Assembly (NCBI GenBank): GCA_030038955.1
Contig: JASHQV010000170.1
Span: 1 to 36,200, forward strand
Length of the DNA stretch: 36,200 nucleotides
DNA from: Solirubrobacteraceae bacterium
GTDB taxonomy: Bacteria > Actinomycetota > Thermoleophilia > Solirubrobacterales > Solirubrobacteraceae
Direction: 5' to 3'
Shown here: one piece after another, positions 20,510 to 32,629 of the stretch
Layout of the letters: the number at the start of each line of letters is the position of its first letter
Position numbering within the stretch: the first letter of the stretch is position 1
Notes under the pieces: generated by a model
The model's database searches: none
What the model saw: only the letters and a program-made list of their open reading frames with translations
Told to the model about the DNA's origin: nothing
Made by a program: the position numbers and the translations under genes

Positions 20510-22066
20510 GTGATCACCGAACAGACGAGCGCACCCGCTCGCTACGTGACGCTGCGCGATTACCTGCGCGTGCTGCGCCGCTACCGGCTGATGATCGTCA
20601 TCGTGGGGTTGGTTGGCGCGGCTGCGGGCCTCGTCTACGCGGGCCAGCAGGCGCCCGTCTACACGGCCGCCGCCCAGGTCAGCTTCCAGGACCCGACCGG
20701 TGATCTGGGCGTCGTCGGCCTCGCGTCGAGCTCCGTCGAAACCCCCGCGCAGGTGGCCGCGACCGAGGCGGCGCTCGTCACCACGCCGAGCGTGATGCAG
20801 CAGGTCAAGCATGCGCTCGGGGTCCCGGCCTCCGCCCAGGCGCTGGCGGGTGCGGTCTCCGCGCAGGTGTCGGCTACGTCGGGTCTGCTGCAGGTCAGCG
20901 CGACGGGCTCGAGCTCGAGCTTCGCTGCGAGCCTGGCGAACACCGTCGCGAAGGTGGTTGTCTCGCAAGCCAACGCGCAGACGCGGACGCAGTTCACGCA
21001 GCTTGCTCGGACGGTCAAGGGAGAGATTGCGCGGCTGCGGTCGGCGGCGACCCCCGGCCGCGCCAGCGAGCTGGCGTTCTATGCGGACGAGCTTGGCAGG
21101 CTGAACACGCTCGCAGGATTCGCCGGGTCGGCGCAACTTGTCGCCCCCGCTCAACTCCCGGGTCCATCTTCGCCGAGTCGCGCCAGAAGCGCGCTCTTGG
21201 GGCTCCTATTCGGTCTCCTGCTGGCGATCGCCGCCGCCTTCCTGCGCGACTCCACGGACCGGCGCCTGCGCAGCGCACAGGAGATGAGGCAGTCCTACGA
21301 GCTGCCCGTGGTGGGGCACATCCGCAGTCAGGCGATGGGTCAAGTGGCGCAGTTCTCGAATGGCTCGAGCCACGCCCCCACGATCGACCTTGAAGCTTTC
21401 CGCATCCTGCGCCGCAACCTCGCGGCCCTCGAAGGCGACCGTTCGCCCCAGTCGATTCTCGTCACCAGCGCCGTGCGCGGGGAGGGCAAGACCACCGTCG
21501 CCAGCTCGCTGGCGTTCGCGATCGCCGCTGCCGGCCGCCGCACCCTGCTGGTGGACTGCGACCTGCGCCGGCCTGCGCTCGCGGCGCGCCTCGGCATCGA
21601 TGAGTCTCCCGGGATCACCGATTACCTCGCCGGAGCGGTTTCGCCGCAGGACATCCTCAGACTCGTCACGCTTGCGGAGCCGCGGGGCAGCGATGACGCA
21701 GCGCCGGCGAGCAATGGGCACGCACCGGCGGCGCGCGCTCCGCAACTTGTGTTCATTCCATCGGGCTCGCGCACGGCAAAGGCCAGCGAGCTTCTGGGCT
21801 CCTACCGGTTCAACGAGTTCATCCAGCAGGTCAGCGAAGCCTACGAGGCGGTGGTGTTCGATTCGAGTCCGCTGCTGCCGGTAGCGGACACGCTGGAGGT
21901 GCTTGCCCGCGTCGATGCAATCGTCGTCTGCGCGCGGGCGTCCGAGACCACCCGGGAGCAAGCATCGGCAGCCCGCGAGGCGCTCTCGCGCTTTCCCAAG
22001 CGCCCGACCGGCCTCGTTGTCACCGGGATCAAGCCGGGTGGCGACGACTATGACGCCTACGCCTAA
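20510..22066 (+). CDS. Polysaccharide co-polymerase/BY-kinase fusion (Wzz domain plus CpsD/CapB-like tyrosine kinase)
   Basis: N-terminal YLRVLRRYRLMIVIVGLVGAAAGLVYA (Wzz TM1); C-terminal Walker A SAVRGEGKTTVASSLAFA, Walker A' TLLVDCDLRRP, VVFDSSPLLPVADTL; short Tyr tail DDYDAYA. GTG start (20504 or 20510). Confidence 0.9.
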   Translation: MITEQTSAPARYVTLRDYLRVLRRYRLMIVIVGLVGAAAGLVYAGQQAPVYTAAAQVSFQDPTGDLGVVGLASSSVETPAQVAATEAALVTTPSVMQQVKHALGVPASAQALAGAVSAQVSATSGLLQVSATGSSSSFAASLANTVAKVVVSQANAQTRTQFTQLARTVKGEIARLRSAATPGRASELAFYADELGRLNTLAGFAGSAQLVAPAQLPGPSSPSRARSALLGLLFGLLLAIAAAFLRDSTDRRLRSAQEMRQSYELPVVGHIRSQAMGQVAQFSNGSSHAPTIDLEAFRILRRNLAALEGDRSPQSILVTSAVRGEGKTTVASSLAFAIAAAGRRTLLVDCDLRRPALAARLGIDESPGITDYLAGAVSPQDILRLVTLAEPRGSDDAAPASNGHAPAARAPQLVFIPSGSRTAKASELLGSYRFNEFIQQVSEAYEAVVFDSSPLLPVADTLEVLARVDAIVVCARASETTREQASAAREALSRFPKRPTGLVVTGIKPGGDDYDAYA

Positions 22067-23012
22067 CCTCGCGCTCGCGACTGATCGCCCGGCATCGGTG
22101 GCGCCGCACGCGATCTCTGCGGCTGTCGACGAAGCCGCTCGCGGTGCGACCGTGCGGGCGCTCGCCACCGACGCCGCGTGCGCCGAGCTCGTGACTGCCT
22201 GGCGCGCGCGGGCGATCGAGTCGATCCTGGTGAAGGGCGTGACCACGGTCGAGTGGCTGTACCGCGACGAGCCTCGTGGGTACGTGGATGCTGACCTGCT
22301 CGTCGCCCCCGACCGCCTGGCCCGCGCCGCCACCGTGCTCCGCGAACTTGAATTCCGCCCCGCTGCGGAGCGCAACTCGGAGCATGCGCACCCGTGGATC
22401 CGCGGCTCTGACCGCACGATCATCGACCTGCACGCGACTCTATGGGGGGCCACCCGCCCGCCCGCACGGGTTTGGCGGGAGCTCCAGGATTGGGTGGAGC
22501 CGTACGCGATCGGAGGAGTCATCGTCCGGGTGCCGAACCTGCCCGCTCGCGCGCTCAGCGTCGCGCTGCACGCCGCGCAGCACCGCGATGTGCCGGCAAA
22601 GCGCGCGGACCTCCGGCGCGCCCTCGAGCACACATCGCTTGCACACTGGCGGGCGGCCGAGCGTCTCGCCGATCGGTTGGGCGCGCTGCCGCTGATGGGT
22701 GCGGGTCTCCAGCTCGAGCCCGACGGTCAAGCGCTGTTGCGGCAGCTCCCGCTCGCCCGTGCCGGCTCGCTCGCAGAACGCGACAAGGCGGCCCTGGCGA
22801 TTGGATTCGCGCGGATCGCGACGGCTCGAGGCGTGCGCGGGAAGGCCTCCGTGATCGTGGCCGCGGTCGCGCCCCTCTCGGACGAGCGGGCTGGCAGGCA
22901 GTTCAACCCGGCGCTGCGCTTCTGCCGACGGATCACCTGGCTGCTGCGGGGGATCCCCCGGACGGTGATCTCGATCCGGCGGGCACGAGCCGATGGCCGC
23001 AAGCGGGTTTGA
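22050..23012 (+). CDS. Nucleotidyltransferase family protein (NTP_transf_5-like), RiPP-locus associated
   Basis: ESILVKGVTTVEWLYRDEPRGYVDADLLVAPDRLARAATVLRELEF...IIDLHATLWG: the GxxxxxxLY-x-D-D-LLV pattern of this family. ATG lies inside the last codons of the upstream BY-kinase. Confidence 0.8.
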   Translation: MTPTPNLALATDRPASVAPHAISAAVDEAARGATVRALATDAACAELVTAWRARAIESILVKGVTTVEWLYRDEPRGYVDADLLVAPDRLARAATVLRELEFRPAAERNSEHAHPWIRGSDRTIIDLHATLWGATRPPARVWRELQDWVEPYAIGGVIVRVPNLPARALSVALHAAQHRDVPAKRADLRRALEHTSLAHWRAAERLADRLGALPLMGAGLQLEPDGQALLRQLPLARAGSLAERDKAALAIGFARIATARGVRGKASVIVAAVAPLSDERAGRQFNPALRFCRRITWLLRGIPRTVISIRRARADGRKRV

Positions 23013-23015
23013 GCG

Positions 23016-24044
23016 GTGTCCGAGCCACAGGTCAGCGTGATCATTCCGGCGCGCGACGCAGCGCCGACGCTCGCGCGTACCCTCGAAGCGCTCGAGTGCC
23101 AGCAGTTCGCGGGCGATTTTGAGGTGATCGTGGTCGACGACGGCTCGCGAGACGAGACGGCCGTGATCGCCCGCCGTCATCGGCCGCCCGTACGGTTGCT
23201 CCACAACGACGCCAGCCACGGCCCGGGGGCCGCGCGCAACACGGGCGTGCGTGCCGCCCGAGCGCCGGTGCTGGCGTTCACCGATGCCGACTGCTTTCCA
23301 ACGCTGCGATGGCTCGCCGAGGGATGTCGCGCGCTTGCGGACGCCGATCTGATCCAGGGTCGCGTCGCTCCGGATACGGCCGCCGATCGCACCCCGTTCG
23401 ACCGTTCGTTGTCGGTCGAGTCCGATCGAGGCTTCTACCAGACGGCGAATCTGTTCGTGCGCAGGGACACGTTCGAGGCGATCGGCGGCTTCAGGGACTG
23501 GGCGCTGGAGCAGCCGGGAAGACGGCGTTGGTCGGTCGATCACAGGCGAGCGCGGGCGATGCGCACGCCGATCGGCGAGGACACGCTGTTCGCGTGGAGC
23601 GGACACCGTCTCGGGCTACGAGCCGCGTTTGCTCCGTACGCGCTGGTCGAGCACGCGGTCGTCCGGGGCAGCGTAGGGGACACGGTTGCCGACCGTTGGC
23701 ATTGGACACGCGACATGCCAGGGCTCGCTCGTCTCGTGCCAGAGCTGCGCACGGCAGTCTTCTATCGCCGCTTGTTCTTCGCTGACTGGACCGCGAAGTT
23801 CGACTTCGCGCTGGCCGGTCTGATGACTACGGCGCTTACGCGACGCAGGCTGTGGCTGCTGGCGACGGCTCCCTACGCTCGCCACGTTTGGCGCGATACC
23901 CGGCCATACCGCGAGGGTCCAGGCTCCCGACTCTCGCGTGCTCGCCGAGCAGGCGCGCACATTCTCGGAGCGCCGGTGGTCGACGCCGCAACGCTCGGGG
24001 GATTGGCAGCCGGCAGCCTCGCATGGCGCTGCCTGGTGCTCTAG
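23016..24044 (+). CDS. Glycosyltransferase family 2
   Basis: GTG start; QVSVIIPARDAAPTLARTLEALECQQF...FEVIVVDDGSRDETAV...GPGAARNTGVRAARAPVLAFTDADCFP. Confidence 0.9.
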   Translation: MSEPQVSVIIPARDAAPTLARTLEALECQQFAGDFEVIVVDDGSRDETAVIARRHRPPVRLLHNDASHGPGAARNTGVRAARAPVLAFTDADCFPTLRWLAEGCRALADADLIQGRVAPDTAADRTPFDRSLSVESDRGFYQTANLFVRRDTFEAIGGFRDWALEQPGRRRWSVDHRRARAMRTPIGEDTLFAWSGHRLGLRAAFAPYALVEHAVVRGSVGDTVADRWHWTRDMPGLARLVPELRTAVFYRRLFFADWTAKFDFALAGLMTTALTRRRLWLLATAPYARHVWRDTRPYREGPGSRLSRARRAGAHILGAPVVDAATLGGLAAGSLAWRCLVL

Positions 24045-24046
24045 CA

Positions 24047-24388
24047 ATGGCTTTCAGCGGACACTACGATCGGGCCGTGAGCGAGCCGCGGGAGCCGCGG
24101 CTGTCGCTGCGCCACAGCGACGTCCGGGCCCGGAGCTTCAACGAAGAGACGATCGTGCTTGACCTGCGGAGCTCGGTCTACCTATCGACGAACCCGGCCG
24201 GCACGATCCTGTGGCAGCAGCTCGAGCGGGGCACCACTCGGTCCCGCATGATCGAGGCGTTGGTGGACGAGTTTCAGATCGACCCGGAGCGGGCCGGCGC
24301 CGACGTCGACGCCTTCCTCGACGACTGCTGGCGGCGCGAGCTGATCGTCGCCGCCGATCAGCCGCCCGCACCCGGAGCTGACGGCTGA
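24047..24388 (+). CDS. PqqD-family RiPP recognition element (lasso B1-like)
   Basis: LSLRHSDVRARSFNEETIVLDLRSSVYLSTNPAGTILWQQLERGTTRSRMIEALVDEFQIDPERAGADVDAFLDDCWRRELI; typical PqqD/RRE. The start could be GTG 24077. Confidence 0.88.
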   Translation: MAFSGHYDRAVSEPREPRLSLRHSDVRARSFNEETIVLDLRSSVYLSTNPAGTILWQQLERGTTRSRMIEALVDEFQIDPERAGADVDAFLDDCWRRELIVAADQPPAPGADG

Positions 24389-24399
24389 TTGCTTGTCAG

Positions 24400-24549
24400 C
24401 TAGCGAGCCGGAACGATGCTTCCGACCAGCTGGTTCTGCTCGGTGCTGTACATGTCGTGGCTGAAGCCGATCTTGTTGAAGCCCTGCTGGGTCAACTCCT
24501 GCAGCGAGCCCAGCTCACGGATCGCGGGTGCTTCGTATGACCTTTTCAT
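24400..24549 (-). CDS. Putative lasso-like RiPP precursor peptide (49 aa)
   Basis: Hand-translated minus strand: MKRSYEAPAIRELGSLQELTQQGFNKIGFSHDMYSTEQNQLVGSIVPAR*. Leader Y-E-A-P-A-I-R-E-L-G-S-L-Q-E-L-T matches the lasso leader pattern YxxP...(L/I)..LG....(L)T recognised by B1/RRE. Purine-rich AAGGGCAGGGAC immediately 5' of the ATG. Lies between the B1 and kinase genes. Below the ORF-track length cutoff. Confidence 0.82.
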   Translation of the reverse strand: MKRSYEAPAIRELGSLQELTQQGFNKIGFSHDMYSTEQNQLVGSIVPAR

Positions 24550-24593: not shown

Positions 24594-25457
24594 ATGCAGG
24601 CTAAGCCCCGTCAACGACCAACCGCAGTCGGAGCGTACGGCTTTCGGGTCAGCGGGCTGAGCGACGGGACGGCACAACTGATGCCGGTGCCGGCCGAGTG
24701 GCCATCGCTCCAGATCGAGCGCGTGCTCGGCGGCGTCGCCACGCCAAAGCCTGCCCGAACACTCCGAATCACCGATCAATATGCTGAGTTGTGGCTACCG
24801 GCCGGGGACCGCATCGAGCTGTTCCGCGAGCCTCTGACCGTCCGGGTCACGAGCCGGGATCCGGTCCACGCCGACGCGATTGCCCACCCTTACCTGGGAC
24901 TTCCGGCCGCGATTGCAAGCGGTTGGCGCGGACGTCTCGCATTCCACGGCGGCGCGTTCGCGCATCAAGGCCGGGCGTGGGCGCTGCTCGGAGGACGCAC
25001 GGCTGGAAAGAGCGCGACGCTGGGTCAGCTGATGAGAGCCGGCTATCCGATCGTCTGCGACGACGTCCTGATCGTCGATCGAACGACCGCGTTCGCGGGG
25101 CCCCGCGCGATCGACCTGCGCGAGGATGCGGCAGCGCTACTTGGCGGCCAGGAGCTCGGAGTCGTCGGCAACCGCACCAGGTGGCGATTGCGGCCGGAGC
25201 CAAGTCCACCTGAGCTTGCGCTCGCCGGACTCGTGTTGCTCGAGTGGGGCGACAGCGTCAGGCTTGAGCCGCTGGCTGCCGAGGAGCGGTTGCGCGCGCT
25301 GGCGGCATCGAGTGCTTTCACTCACGGGCGGGAGGCAGCGGTCGCCTACCTGGAGCTGGCGGCGCTCCCGGGCTGGCGTTACGTTCGCCCCGCCAAAGTT
25401 GCACAGATCGAGGCGCAGACGGATCAGCTGGTGGCTTCGCTGAGCCCCTGCACGTGA
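24594..25457 (+). CDS. HPr kinase/phosphorylase-like protein (lasso-locus kinase-like)
   Basis: Walker A in WALLGGRTAGKSATLGQLMRAGYPIVCDDVLIVD; HPrK-like fold pattern. Start placed at MQAKPRQRP (24594); it lacks an evident SD. Confidence 0.78.
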   Translation: MQAKPRQRPTAVGAYGFRVSGLSDGTAQLMPVPAEWPSLQIERVLGGVATPKPARTLRITDQYAELWLPAGDRIELFREPLTVRVTSRDPVHADAIAHPYLGLPAAIASGWRGRLAFHGGAFAHQGRAWALLGGRTAGKSATLGQLMRAGYPIVCDDVLIVDRTTAFAGPRAIDLREDAAALLGGQELGVVGNRTRWRLRPEPSPPELALAGLVLLEWGDSVRLEPLAAEERLRALAASSAFTHGREAAVAYLELAALPGWRYVRPAKVAQIEAQTDQLVASLSPCT

Positions 25458-26590
25458 AGCCACCCCTGCTGAAGCAAGAGCGTCGTGCGGGCGTCGGGCT
25501 GCTCGGACCGCAGCTCGCCGTGCAGCCGCTCCGTGTCGACATCGCGTGAGTCGACGCCGCTCCCGTCCCAGCCGGTGACGAACGCCTGAGCCCGTGGTCC
25601 CCAGACTGCGCCTCCAAAGGTCGCCTTCGAAGGGCGGCTCAAGACCGCATCGGGCAGCAGCGTGCCGCAGAGTAGTCGCATCGCCTCGGTGCGGTTGCGA
25701 AAGCCGTGCGAGCCGCCGGCGAGCGCGAGCTCAGCGAGCACCCGACGATCCAGGAACGGGTTGCAGACCTCGACGTCGCGTCCCTGGGCGACCAGGGCGA
25801 TCGTCCCGTCCAGCGCGGCGAACGCTCGGCTTGCGTACCAGTGGCGCAGGGCGCGGTCCCACCGGTACGGGTAGCGCCGCTGATCGCGGACTAGCGCGCG
25901 TCGGACCCGCGTCAGTCCACGTGGGGTCAGCCATCCGTACCCCTCAGGAGGCCTCCGCCAGAGCCACAGCTGCTCCCGCACCCGCCGCGGCAGCATCGCG
26001 ATCGCCAGCTGCCGGAGCGAGCGGCCGGGCACGCCGGTCGAGAACAACTCGTCTCCGCCGATCCCGGTGAGCACGGTGCCGCCGCGCGCGAGCTCGATCA
26101 CCGGCCCGTGCATGTACGCGTTGGCGGGCCAGCGGATCCCATGCGCCTTGAGAAAGTCGGTCGCAGCCGAGCCGAGGACGTCGAGCTCGTCGCTCAGCGC
26201 AAGGACTTCGACCTCATCGAGACGCAGGTGCTCGAGCACCATCTCCTGCCACGCTGCCTCCGCGCTGGCCGGCACATGCGCGAAGCGCATGATCGCCGGG
26301 ACGGGCAGCTCCAGTCCGTGACGGCGAGCCACATCCGACGCCAGCGCTAGCACGGCGCTCGAGTCGCGGCCACCGGAGAAGCTGACCACGCAGGGCGGGT
26401 GCGAGAGCGCCGCAATCAGGACGGCTTGGAGTGCCGCGTGTAGTCCATCCGCTCGCGGCGTGCCATCCGCTCGCGGCGTGGGAAGCGGCTCGGCTGACTC
26501 GTCCGGGCCGAGCATCAGACTGGCGAGCAACTCGATCTCGCGAGGCTGGGGCACTGGGCGTGTCGTCGCACACTCGGCTCCGGTGCTCAT
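25424..26590 (-). CDS. Asparagine-synthetase-like macrolactam synthetase (lasso C-like), lacking the N-terminal glutaminase domain
   Basis: VVSFSGGRDSSAVLALASDVARRHG (PP-loop SGGxDS), VLTGIGGDELFSTG, EVCNPFLDRRVLAELALAGG. Start MSTGAEC at 26590, 2 bp after the ABC stop codon. Confidence 0.87.
   Translation of the reverse strand: MSTGAECATTRPVPQPREIELLASLMLGPDESAEPLPTPRADGTPRADGLHAALQAVLIAALSHPPCVVSFSGGRDSSAVLALASDVARRHGLELPVPAIMRFAHVPASAEAAWQEMVLEHLRLDEVEVLALSDELDVLGSAATDFLKAHGIRWPANAYMHGPVIELARGGTVLTGIGGDELFSTGVPGRSLRQLAIAMLPRRVREQLWLWRRPPEGYGWLTPRGLTRVRRALVRDQRRYPYRWDRALRHWYASRAFAALDGTIALVAQGRDVEVCNPFLDRRVLAELALAGGSHGFRNRTEAMRLLCGTLLPDAVLSRPSKATFGGAVWGPRAQAFVTGWDGSGVDSRDVDTERLHGELRSEQPDARTTLLLQQGWLHVQGLSEATS
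26445..26480. repeat. Perfect 2 x 18-bp tandem repeat (ccatccgctcgcggcgtg)
   Basis: ccatccgctcgcggcgtg at 26445-26462 repeated directly at 26463-26480; encodes TPRADG-TPRADG in the cyclase N-terminus. Confidence 0.9.
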
Positions 26591-26592
26591 GC

Positions 26593-28470
26593 TCAGCTCC
26601 GGTACTGACTGGCCTGGAGCTCGAACAACTCCGCGTAGTAGCCGGCTGCGGCGAGCAGCTGCCGGTGCGTGCCCTGCTCGTGGATGCGCCCGTCCCGCAA
26701 CACGTAGATCCGGTCGGCACTGCGAACGGATGCGAACCGGTGCGAGATCAGCAGCACCCCGCGGCCGGCAAACAGTGTGCGCATGCTCGCGTACAGCGCC
26801 GCCTCCGCCCGAGGGTCCAGCACCGAGGTCGGCTCGTCGAGGATTACCACAGGCGCGTTGCGGAAGAACAGTCGCGCGAGCGCGATCCGCTGCCACTCAC
26901 CGCCGGACAGGTCGCTGCCGCCGAAGAATGCGGGCCCGAGGATCGTCTCGTAGCCTGCCGGTAGGCTCGCGATCGTCTCGTGGATCCCAGCTGCCCGAGC
27001 CGCGCGCTCGACCGCGCCGGCGTCCTCGAATCTCCGGTGATCGCCCAGCGCGATGTTGTCGTAGGCGGGCAGCAGATAGTGCATGAAGTCCTGGAAGACG
27101 ACCGCGACGCGCCGGCGCGCCTCGGCGGGATCGAGCGTCGAGGCATCGATTCCATCCCAGGCCACCACTCCTGTCGTCGGCGCATACAGGCCGGCCAGCA
27201 GCTTCGCCAGCGTGGTCTTGCCTGAGCCGTTCTCTCCGACCAAGGCCACCACCTCGCCGCGCCGCAGCTCCAGCGACACCCCAACCAGGCTTGGGCTCCT
27301 GCGGCTCGGATACGTGAAGCCAACGTCGACGGCGGTGAGCAGCTCCGGCTCGTGGACAACAGGGACGGTGCGGCGCGACGCCCCGACCCTGGGAGCGGCG
27401 CCCACGAACGACAGGTAGTCCTCCAGGTACAGCGAGTTCTCGTACAGACCCGCCGAGCCGTTGGCCAGGCCGTGGAGGCGTCCGCTGAGCAGGACCATCG
27501 CGGTCGCGGCCGAGCCAGCCTCCGCCAGCGTCATCCGACCGCTGGTCACGAACCAGACCAGCACGGCCAGCAGGCCGGCGCTCAGCACCGCGGTCGCCAG
27601 CTGCCCCGCGAGCGCGAGCCGCATCCGCCTGGTCAACACCTCGCGCAGCTCGTCCAGCAGCTGCCTGTAGATCGCGTACTGGCGATCGGCCAGGAAGGCC
27701 CCCGTCCCGAACGCGCGAATCTCCTGGGCCGGCGGCTTCGTGGTCAACGTCTCGAACAGGTACTGCTGCCGACGCAGGCGCTCGGTCTGCTCGACCGACT
27801 GCCGGTAGCCGAGGCGGCCGGCGCGGTTGGTCGCGAACCAGATCGGGACGTAGGCGACCAGCGCGAGCAGACAGAAGAGCGGCTGGATCAGCAGCAGCGC
27901 CACGGCGATGCCGCCGATCGAGAGCACCGCTCCAGCAGTGGTGATCAGCTCCTGCACCATCATCGCCGGGCGCGATGTGGCAGCCAGCTGCGCACGCTGC
28001 AGCCGGTCGTGGAAGCGCGGTGCCTCGTAGGTGATCAGGTCAACCGCGATCGCGGTGCGGACGATCGCGTCGGTGGCGTGCAGCGCGACCAGGTGCGCGA
28101 GCAACCGGCCGCGCAGGCCGAGCAACGTGCCCGCCGTCCCGAGCACGACGGTCAGCGCGGTGATGCCCGCCAGCTGAGGGAGAATCGCCCCGAACGCAAC
28201 CGCATGAGCGCCGGTGAGGTGGCCGAGCAGGCTTCGGACCAGCAGCAGCTCGCCGGCGAGCGCGGCCGCGGTCAGCGCCTGCAGTGCGATCACCTCTAGC
28301 AGCTCCCGCCTCGCCGCACGCCACACGATCCCGAACGACACGGCAACAAGGTGCGGGAAGCGCGTCAGCCGCCGCCGGGTCGGCGTGAAGTAGTCCTGGA
28401 GCGTGAAAGCAGGATCGTCGGAGGCCTCGACGCCCAGCTGCGTGACCGGCTCGGTGTGAACGTCGGTCAT
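26593..28470 (-). CDS. ABC transporter, fused permease-ATPase (lasso D-like exporter)
   Basis: ORF 625 aa; TM region, then Walker A VALVGENGSGKTTLAKLLAGLY, signature DLSGGEWQRIALARLF, Walker B VVILDEPTSVLDP, H-loop LLISHRF. Confidence 0.95.
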   Translation of the reverse strand: MTDVHTEPVTQLGVEASDDPAFTLQDYFTPTRRRLTRFPHLVAVSFGIVWRAARRELLEVIALQALTAAALAGELLLVRSLLGHLTGAHAVAFGAILPQLAGITALTVVLGTAGTLLGLRGRLLAHLVALHATDAIVRTAIAVDLITYEAPRFHDRLQRAQLAATSRPAMMVQELITTAGAVLSIGGIAVALLLIQPLFCLLALVAYVPIWFATNRAGRLGYRQSVEQTERLRRQQYLFETLTTKPPAQEIRAFGTGAFLADRQYAIYRQLLDELREVLTRRMRLALAGQLATAVLSAGLLAVLVWFVTSGRMTLAEAGSAATAMVLLSGRLHGLANGSAGLYENSLYLEDYLSFVGAAPRVGASRRTVPVVHEPELLTAVDVGFTYPSRRSPSLVGVSLELRRGEVVALVGENGSGKTTLAKLLAGLYAPTTGVVAWDGIDASTLDPAEARRRVAVVFQDFMHYLLPAYDNIALGDHRRFEDAGAVERAARAAGIHETIASLPAGYETILGPAFFGGSDLSGGEWQRIALARLFFRNAPVVILDEPTSVLDPRAEAALYASMRTLFAGRGVLLISHRFASVRSADRIYVLRDGRIHEQGTHRQLLAAAGYYAELFELQASQYRS

Positions 28471-28473
28471 CGC

Positions 28474-28905
28474 TCAGAGCGTCAGCAGGCGCCCGTACTC
28501 GGGGGGCGCCGGCGGCAGCAGCGCGCTCCCGTCGAGCTCCACCCACGCGTGCGCGTCGAGGCCGATCTCTGCTCCCGGACGGACGGCGATCACCAGCGAG
28601 GCGTCGACGACGCCGCGGGCGGCGAGCATTCGCAACAGCACCAGCGAGCAGAGCAGACAGCTCGAGTCCACGCGCAGCCACTCGAGCGTGCGAACGACGG
28701 CGCGACCGAGACGTCGCTCGTCGGCGCGGCTCTCAGAAGTCGCCCGTGCCGAGCACCGGACCAACGCCACCGTGCGCGGGAGCGGATGGCGACGGATCGT
28801 CCAGCGAACCCGCCCATAGCTGACGATGATCTCGCTGACCAGCCGCAGCCTCCCCACCGACGAGAGGCGCGCGGGAAGCCGCTCCCCGAGCTCCGTCACG
28901 GTCAT
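28474..28905 (-). CDS. Lasso-type transglutaminase-like leader peptidase (B2-like)
   Basis: RTLEWLRVDSSCLLCSLVLLRMLAARGVVDASLVIAVRPGAEIGLDAHAWVELDGSALL: Cys/His (AHAWVE)/Asp arrangement of Transglut_core3. Confidence 0.88.
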   Translation of the reverse strand: MTVTELGERLPARLSSVGRLRLVSEIIVSYGRVRWTIRRHPLPRTVALVRCSARATSESRADERRLGRAVVRTLEWLRVDSSCLLCSLVLLRMLAARGVVDASLVIAVRPGAEIGLDAHAWVELDGSALLPPAPPEYGRLLTL

Positions 28906-31096: not shown

Positions 31097-32629
31097 ATGG
31101 CCAGGAGAAGACGCACCGCGGGGGGGAGCGCGCTGGCGGACACGGCGCTCGAGCTTGCCGCGCCTGCCGCGTCGGCTGTGGCGGCAGGCGCGGAGCTGGA
31201 TGTTGCCGCGACCGCTGCTTCGCCTACGGCGGCGGACGCGGCGGTCGCAACGCCAGCGACCTCCGGGCGGGTGCTTCGCGATCGAGCGACCACCGCCGAG
31301 CTCGTCGTCGTCACCCGCGATTCGGAAGCCGATCTGGCGCGCTCACTTGCGTCGATCCGCGAGTCCGCGGGGCGCGCGCATGCAGGTCTCCTGTTCATCG
31401 ACCTCGGGTCGAGCGACGGCACGCGCTCGTTCATCGCCAGGCACGCGTTCGCTGCACAGGGCGTGTGGCTCGAGCCGCGCGACTCGTTTGCCGACGCGGT
31501 CGCCGTCGCGGCAGCCGTCTCGGAGGCCGACGTGATCGTGCTGCTGAGACCGACCGCGACGCCATCTTCGCCGGAGGCGCTGTGCGATCTGATCGAGCAT
31601 CTCGAGGCGCATCCCTATGCGGCGATCGCGGTGCCGGCCCTGCAGGGTCACGGCGGCCGGATTCTGCGCACGGTGAGGCCGGTGCCGCGGACTGATGGCT
31701 ACGCGCCCGTCGAGTGTGCGCTCGGGGTGGCGATGGCGATCCGTCGCGAGGAGCTGCAGGCGGTGGGAACCCTGCGAAGGCGAGCGGCGGGCCGTCTGGA
31801 GGAGCTCGACCTGTGCATGCGGCTCCGCCGCCGCGGGCGCGAGATCCACTACCTGCGCGCTGTCCGCTTCATCGACGCTGGCGGCCGTACCGCCTCGCGT
31901 GTCTGCTCGCGTCGCTTGAGCCGGCGGGCGCGGATGATGCTGGCGCTTCACCCCGGGTTCGCGTTGCGGCTACACCGACGTCCCAGCGCCGCAAACGGGG
32001 TCGCGCGTGGACTCGCGAGGGGCTTCGACATCGTCGCCGCGCTGGCGCTGATCGTCGTGCTCGCGCCCCTGCTGCTCGCGATCGCGCTCGCCGTGCGCCT
32101 TGACTCCTCTGGTCCGGCGTTGTTTCGCCAGGTGCGTCTCGGCATCGGCGCGCGATCGTTTCAGATGTTCAAGTTCCGCACGATGCAGCACAACGCGGAT
32201 CCGCGCATCCACCAGCAGTTCGTGCGCGAGATGATCGGCAACAACCTCGCCGCCGACGTCACGCGGTCGGTCACGATCTTCAAGGTTCACCCGGACCCGC
32301 GCGTCACGCGCGTGGGCCGCCTGCTGCGGCGCACGAGCCTCGACGAGCTGCCCCAGCTGTTCAACATCCTGCGCGGCGAGATGACGTTCGTCGGCTTCCG
32401 ACCGCCGATTCCATACGAGCTTGACGCCTACCCTGAGTGGTACTACCGCCGCTTCGACTCGAAGCCCGGTCTCACCGGTCTGTGGCAGGTGAGCGGGCGC
32501 AACGAGCGCAGCTATGACGAGATGGTGCGGCTCGACATCGAGTACGCCAACCGCCGCAGCTGGCTGTTCGCGGCGGTGGTGCTGATCCGGACGATCGGGG
32601 TCGTGTTGAGTGGGCGCGGGGCGTGCTGA
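31097..32629 (+). CDS. Fusion of a GT2-like domain and a priming bacterial sugar transferase (undecaprenyl-phosphate hexose-1-P transferase)
   Basis: N-terminal [45 protein letters not shown]-terminal [55 protein letters not shown]...[25 protein letters not shown]...[14 protein letters not shown]. Confidence 0.9.

Follow-up and report, generated by a model that had tools for sequence, protein, structure and literature searches.

Reviews describe the rings of lasso peptides as closed by the N-terminal amine on an acidic residue at position 7–9 of the core (PMC4979651). In the phosphorylated types, PadeK phosphorylates a C-terminal Ser and PsmN adds a hexose (PMC9266682), and in Bacilli, paeninodin-like lasso clusters also occur in capsule loci, together with HprK kinases and nucleoside triphosphate (NTP) transferases (PMC13381572). 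The window analysed here is a 36,200-nucleotide stretch of a Solirubrobacteraceae bacterium (contig JASHQV010000170.1), and positions 24400–24549 of its minus strand encode the precursor of a ribosomally synthesized and post-translationally modified peptide (RiPP). Leader and enzymes are of the lasso type, but the core has no acid at the usual place. Comparison with homologous loci favours a ring in which the synthetase would join the side chain of Lys26 to Asp32, after a normal cut behind Thr20-Gln21, a reading that we hold to be about evenly poised between right and wrong.

The open reading frame (ORF) and its leader, which was described in the original prediction as a lasso-type leader binding the RiPP recognition element (RRE), are both upheld. 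Its translation is identical, NCBIfam model NF033521 (lasso_leader_L3) matches with E=1.7e-6 and 27.7 bits (curated cut-off 19), and in loci with the same machinery a homologous short ORF adjoins the HPrK kinase or the synthetase gene. Leader matches to NF033521 were found in 35 of 399 genomes in a class-wide search and in none of 14 control genomes. The precursor has the YxxPx[ILV] RRE motif and Thr at position −2 of the cut. Numbered from that cut, Gln22 is residue 1, Lys26 residue 5 and Asp32 residue 11 (10 if counted from Gly23), and there is no acid at residues 7–9; the earlier count, which placed this core outside the 7–9 ring rule, was correct. That the ORF arose by chance, or has decayed and is not translated, is very improbable: it does lie between the PqqD and kinase genes on the strand opposite to both, with about 45 bases between its start and that of the divergent kinase, but the leader scores above the family cut-off, the Lys-Asp unit is conserved, and divergent synteny with the kinase is kept in 22 of the 41 precursors of the Lys type described below. 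Judged by its sequence, this is a genuine lasso-type RiPP precursor.

The synthetase family was present in 13 of the 399 genomes sampled from the class and in 13 of 146 from the taxonomic family. A named genome collection contained it at 61 loci, in Solirubrobacterales, Acidimicrobiia, Blastococcus, Modestobacter, Nocardioides, Cellulomonas, Pseudonocardiaceae and others. These loci were scanned for precursors with a hidden Markov model of the leader, precursors and synthetases were paired by distance, and the main set comprised 67 non-redundant precursors beside the synthetase family. Each core was anchored on its first Asp from residue 7 on, a rule chosen after the data were seen. A genome of the window's genus has two such loci (L066 and L075), with coordinates that coincide with those of a Solirubrobacterales metagenome-assembled genome. 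As queries, the precursor alone gave nearly no matches, and the kinase, in a phylum sample, almost none besides the window.

The cores fall into two kinds. Canonical cores have no Lys at the spacing given below, mostly start with Gly or Ala, and have Asp at residue 8 or 9 (for example ANLFGxxxD, GQSxGSRLD and GNIFQRGHD); in 25 of 32 synthetase rows the Asp is at residue 9. Lys-type cores, including that of the window (QGFNKIGFSHD), have a Lys 6 (27 cores) or 7 (8 cores) residues ahead of the Asp, while the Asp itself can be anywhere from residue 7 to 24. Further examples are ASNKDFTAPSD (L049), GCNKDYVGSD and TGCYWNKQFGGTD (L048), QVNKTLGAND (L064), TRIHKNTGTGD (L072), SYDTHKTQGGGD (L082), DTGIPTGSKYPSTTSD (L120) and GTGTPTITPPQSGKVPSSTSD (L089), and Pro is frequent inside the 7-residue spacing. 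Over the 67 cores, Lys precedes the Asp by 6 residues in 27, by 7 in 9 and by 2 in 8, with at most 3 at every other offset. Lys at D-6 or D-7 was present in 35 of the 67; in 10000 shuffles of the residues upstream of the Asp, the mean was 10.2 and the maximum 20 (for D-6 alone, 5.3 and 15). The motif N-K-x-G-x3-D, suggested earlier, is not conserved as such among relatives, and it is K-x5-D or K-x6-D that is kept instead.

Where the Asp lies at residue 10 or later, 27 of 30 cores carry this Lys; where it lies at 7–9, 8 of 32 do (Fisher 1.7e-7). In 25 of the 27, residues 7–9 include no acid, which makes a lasso ring of the normal kind impossible from the Thr(−2) cut. One core with a distant Asp and no Lys (L086) has Glu at residue 8 and is canonical. 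Thr(−2) is present in all 35 Lys-type precursors, and the cut site therefore appears to have stayed in place. At residue 1 this kind is more permissive: Gly, Ala, Ser or Cys occurs in 14 of 35 Lys-type cores and in 19 of 24 canonical ones (p=0.004).

On a synthetase tree of 72 rows, made by a quick method, the window falls within a set of 36 rows (SH-aLRT, the Shimodaira–Hasegawa-like approximate likelihood ratio test, 99), of which 30 have Lys-type cores, 4 have other cores and 2 lack a usable Asp. Another Lys-type set (L079, L083, L089 and L120) stands apart. The minimum number of changes on this tree is 21 for the length between leader and Lys, 7 for the Lys-Asp spacing, and 4 for the distance from leader to Asp in canonical rows. 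With at least 21 changes on one side of the Lys and 7 on the other, insertions and deletions build up before the Lys and not between Lys and Asp; neighbouring pairs with such a difference ahead of the Lys are TDKKYGVSDGFTFMG (L156) and TQDKKWGGSDGFTFMG (L158), and QFKSFGAADG (L073, Modestobacter) and QVNKTLGANDG (L064, Blastococcus). Even within the window's clade, two relatives that have no Lys (L067 and L087, with GVGLASTD and GATGLLTD) are back in the canonical G1-D8 register. What the comparison shows, then, are the genes and the leader, together with a fixed Lys-Asp unit whose distance from the leader floats.

A constant Lys-Asp distance, combined with a floating distance to the usual start, points to ring closure from the Lys and not from the peptide end. 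As one enzyme group serves both G1-D8 and floating K-x5-D cores, the simplest account is that either the N-terminal amine or the Lys side-chain amine attacks the same activated Asp. The rings would be of similar size, with 26 atoms for K-x5-D and 29 for K-x6-D through the Lys side chain, and 25 and 28 for a backbone amine closing on Asp at residue 8 or 9. More tentatively, a branch of the lasso-type cyclases may have switched its nucleophile to an internal Lys side chain, freeing the K-x5/6-D unit from the leader junction, so that as many as about 17 core residues could precede it.

The main rival, which we consider rather unlikely, is that B2 or another protease cuts before Asn25 or Lys26, so that a backbone amine closes an ordinary ring on Asp32, of 8 or 7 residues, with Lys as residue 2 or 1. 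Across the family such rings have legal sizes (8 or 9 from the residue before the Lys, 7 or 8 from the Lys itself), lariocidin offers the precedent Ser1-Lys2-...-Asp8, and metanodin that of Asn as residue 1 (PMC11451635, PMC12670498). Eleven of the 35 Lys-type cores also have Thr, Ile or Val two residues before the Lys, readable as a second cut site, and Ile/Val(−2) is known from phosphorylated lasso peptides (PMC10368454). In the window, however, that residue is Phe. The position just ahead of the Lys accepts many residues (G, N, S, Y, H, D, F, P and others), no constant motif recurs at a set distance, and Thr(−2) keeps its usual place in every Lys-type precursor although the Lys may follow as many as 17 residues later. 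Of the three explanations originally offered for this core (an unusual ring, a shifted cut, or a Lys side-chain isopeptide), the comparison therefore favours the third, with the shifted cut before Asn25 or Lys26 as its rival. The cuts at Phe24 and Ser30 put forward at the same time (rings F24-D32 and S30-E36), and an 11-residue ring from Gln22, were discarded because these positions are not conserved in relatives.

It is improbable, though less so than a chance ORF, that the Lys is kept for another reason, such as target or enzyme binding or some other modification, the core being either an 11-residue ring of 34 atoms from Gln22 or linear. Fusilassin enzymes accept ring sizes of 7–10 in engineered cores (PMC13352647), and linear phosphorylated relatives of lasso peptides occur in Bacillota (PMC13381572); but the Asp at residues 13–24 in relatives lies far past any known ring, and the Bacillota linear peptides have no synthetase, while the window cluster has one.

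Several points weigh against closure from the Lys side chain. Known lasso cyclases use the N-terminal amine (PMC4979651, PMC13352647), and lariocidin, in which Lys2 is six residues before the ring Asp8, nonetheless closes its ring from the N-terminus in the ordinary way (PMC11451635). In the open-access PMC literature, no description was found of a lasso-type cyclase that closes a ring through a Lys side chain, which is weak evidence of absence, most subscription journals and bioRxiv being outside that literature; the Lys-Asp product is a prediction from comparison, with none known. Eight Lys-type cores would also permit a normal ring, and two cores with Asp at residue 10 (L092, 9191–9334; L119, 4094–4195) have neither the Lys nor an acid at 7–9 and so break the two-kind rule. 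The post hoc Asp anchor, the quick tree and the pairing of precursors by distance, as well as the possible second cut site in the 11 cores, count on the same side.

From these data we infer a scheme for cut site, nucleophile, threading and tailoring in which the YxxPxI leader would be bound by the PqqD protein, and the B2 peptidase would cut in its usual place. Asp32 would then be adenylated by the synthetase, and the Lys26 side chain would attack in place of the N-terminal amine. The predicted product is a 26-atom Lys-Asp macrolactam with a short free N-terminal segment (QGFN) and a C-terminal tail that may thread the ring. A Ser near the C-terminus would be phosphorylated by the HPrK-like kinase, the nucleotidyltransferase may decorate the product, and the ABC protein would export it.

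The locus has an AsnB-type enzyme with predicted macrolactam synthetase activity. In the window protein and five relatives, Pfam finds the synthetase domain PF00733 alone. An AlphaFold2 model (53 homologues) has a predicted local distance difference test score (pLDDT) of 91.5, and in a fold search it comes closest to beta-lactam synthetase, the hydroxyamidotransferase TsnB9, asparagine synthetases and carbapenam synthetase, with modest TM-scores of 0.37–0.58. The motif FSGGRDSS shows no variation across the 53 homologues. The missing glutaminase half was dropped as a novelty, since McjC has also been described as having no such domain (PMC4979651).

Ser is among the last three residues in 37 of 41 Lys-type precursors (11.8 expected from composition) and in 44 of 52 others (16.3 expected). 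The motif GSxVP, which had been expected to be conserved, is not; it is this Ser that relatives keep. Such a conserved Ser is consistent with C-terminal phosphorylation of the PadeK kind and with PsmN-like addition of a hexose (PMC9266682). The window's precursor is among the four Lys-type exceptions: its core ends in GSIVPAR, has no C-terminal Ser, and leaves Ser44, sixth from the end, as its candidate site. Its product is probably phosphorylated.

Features of the precursor and its cluster, with window coordinates
Feature	Coordinates	Strand	Basis
Precursor peptide gene, 49 aa	24400..24549	minus	Translation; NF033521 above cut-off; homologous ORFs in sister loci
Leader RRE-binding motif YEAPAI (Y5-I10)	24520..24537	minus	Agrees with leader family and all relatives
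Leader Thr20, −2 of conventional cut	24490..24492	minus	Invariant in 35/35 Lys-type precursors
Lys26-x5-Asp32 unit KIGFSHD, proposed ring	24454..24474	minus	K-x5-D or K-x6-D in 35/67 precursors, far over shuffles
Ser44, candidate phosphorylation site	24418..24420	minus	Suggested by near-C-terminal Ser conserved in relatives and adjacent kinase
PqqD/RRE (B1) protein	24047..24388	plus	PF05402 E=1.4e-14; NF033530 under its cut-off
HPrK-like kinase, divergent from precursor	24594..25457	plus	Weak TIGR04352/FomB matches; Walker A GGRTAGKS; divergent synteny conserved
AsnB-type macrolactam synthetase, synthetase domain only, convergent with kinase	25424..26590	minus	PF00733; AlphaFold2; fold search
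ABC exporter, fused permease/ATPase	26593..28470	minus	PF00005, MsbA-like
B2 leader peptidase	28474..28905	minus	NF033537 above cut-off; PF13471
Nucleotidyltransferase NTP_transf_5, possible tailoring enzyme	about 22050..23012	plus	PF14907 E=1.7e-22; start codon set by eye
GT2 glycosyltransferase	23016..24044	plus	

Both a B1 RRE protein and a B2 peptidase are thus near the precursor, as is an HPrK-like kinase; the kinase families score the latter weakly, so its identity depends on the P-loop and the conserved position. Many glycosyltransferase-like ORFs and a Wzz/BY-kinase-like protein, recognized on inspection of translations, flank the cluster (353–24044 and 31097–32629), which therefore seems to be set in an exopolysaccharide region. 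No ATP-grasp ligase was found in the eight neighbouring proteins scanned, a set that does not cover every ORF of the window.

Some other cores are of separate interest. Three of the Lys type contain a Cys pair (L048, 5867–6004, CYWNKQFGGTD...NCSS; L075, 9938–10069, CFLGKQWGGHD...NCSA; L023, 1109–1393, CVFNKTFGEPD...TTCS), which suggests an extra disulphide. In Acidimicrobiia, loci that share the synthetase, kinase and PqqD have leader ORFs that are single (L063, 692–760) or seven in tandem (L076, 4442–5182). Their cores are very short (VPGSIT, VDGSFGDREQP, DDGSVFDADPTN), and at least one contains no acid. In a different family of the class, eight loci (L011, L018, L021, L024, L027, L028, L030 and L032) have lasso-type leaders and short cores, most with W-x-C-S (for example AWQCSVTVPPPPA); these are probably another kind of RiPP with a shared leader.

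If ring closure from the Lys is correct, the product is a lariat whose N-terminus overhangs the ring, an architecture new among RiPP macrolactams and overlooked by mining rules that look for an acid at 7–9, and the missed precursors are explained. A widespread actinobacterial group would then break the rule of N-terminal amine and 7–9 ring, broadening the chemistry of AsnB-type cyclases and offering a route to rings away from the peptide end.

Among described systems, linear polyphosphorylated peptides (LPP) differ in that the window cluster has a macrolactam synthetase (the LPP SpI-type peptidase was not searched for). The proposed bond is a side-chain to side-chain macrolactam like that of graspetides, but those are made by ATP-grasp ligases (PMC13097080), unlike the AsnB-type enzyme here. 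Metanodin, which accepts Asn as the ring-forming residue 1, bears on the cut before Asn25, yet it obeys Thr(−2) and the expected ring size (PMC12670498). Lariocidin/triculamin shares the Lys six residues before the ring Asp, and in LAR-B this Lys bears an isopeptide bond; in contrast to our proposal, its ring is Ser1-Asp8 through the N-terminal amine, and the partner of Lys2, in a trimmed isoform, is the C-terminal carboxyl of Arg17 rather than Asp (PMC11451635). With the phosphorylated (glycosylated) lasso peptides paeninodin and pseudomycoidin (PMC9266682) the cluster shares an HPrK-like kinase and a nucleotidyltransferase, with the near-C-terminal Ser in relatives, and with the paeninodin-type clusters of Bacilli a polysaccharide-locus setting (PMC13381572), but the window has no C-terminal Ser, another core geometry and an actinobacterial host. 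The YxxPxI leader with Thr(−2), PqqD-type RRE, B2 peptidase, PF00733 synthetase and ABC exporter are those of split B1/B2 lasso peptides, from which the window differs in having no acid at 7–9 from the Thr(−2) cut and a Lys fixed 6–7 residues before the Asp.
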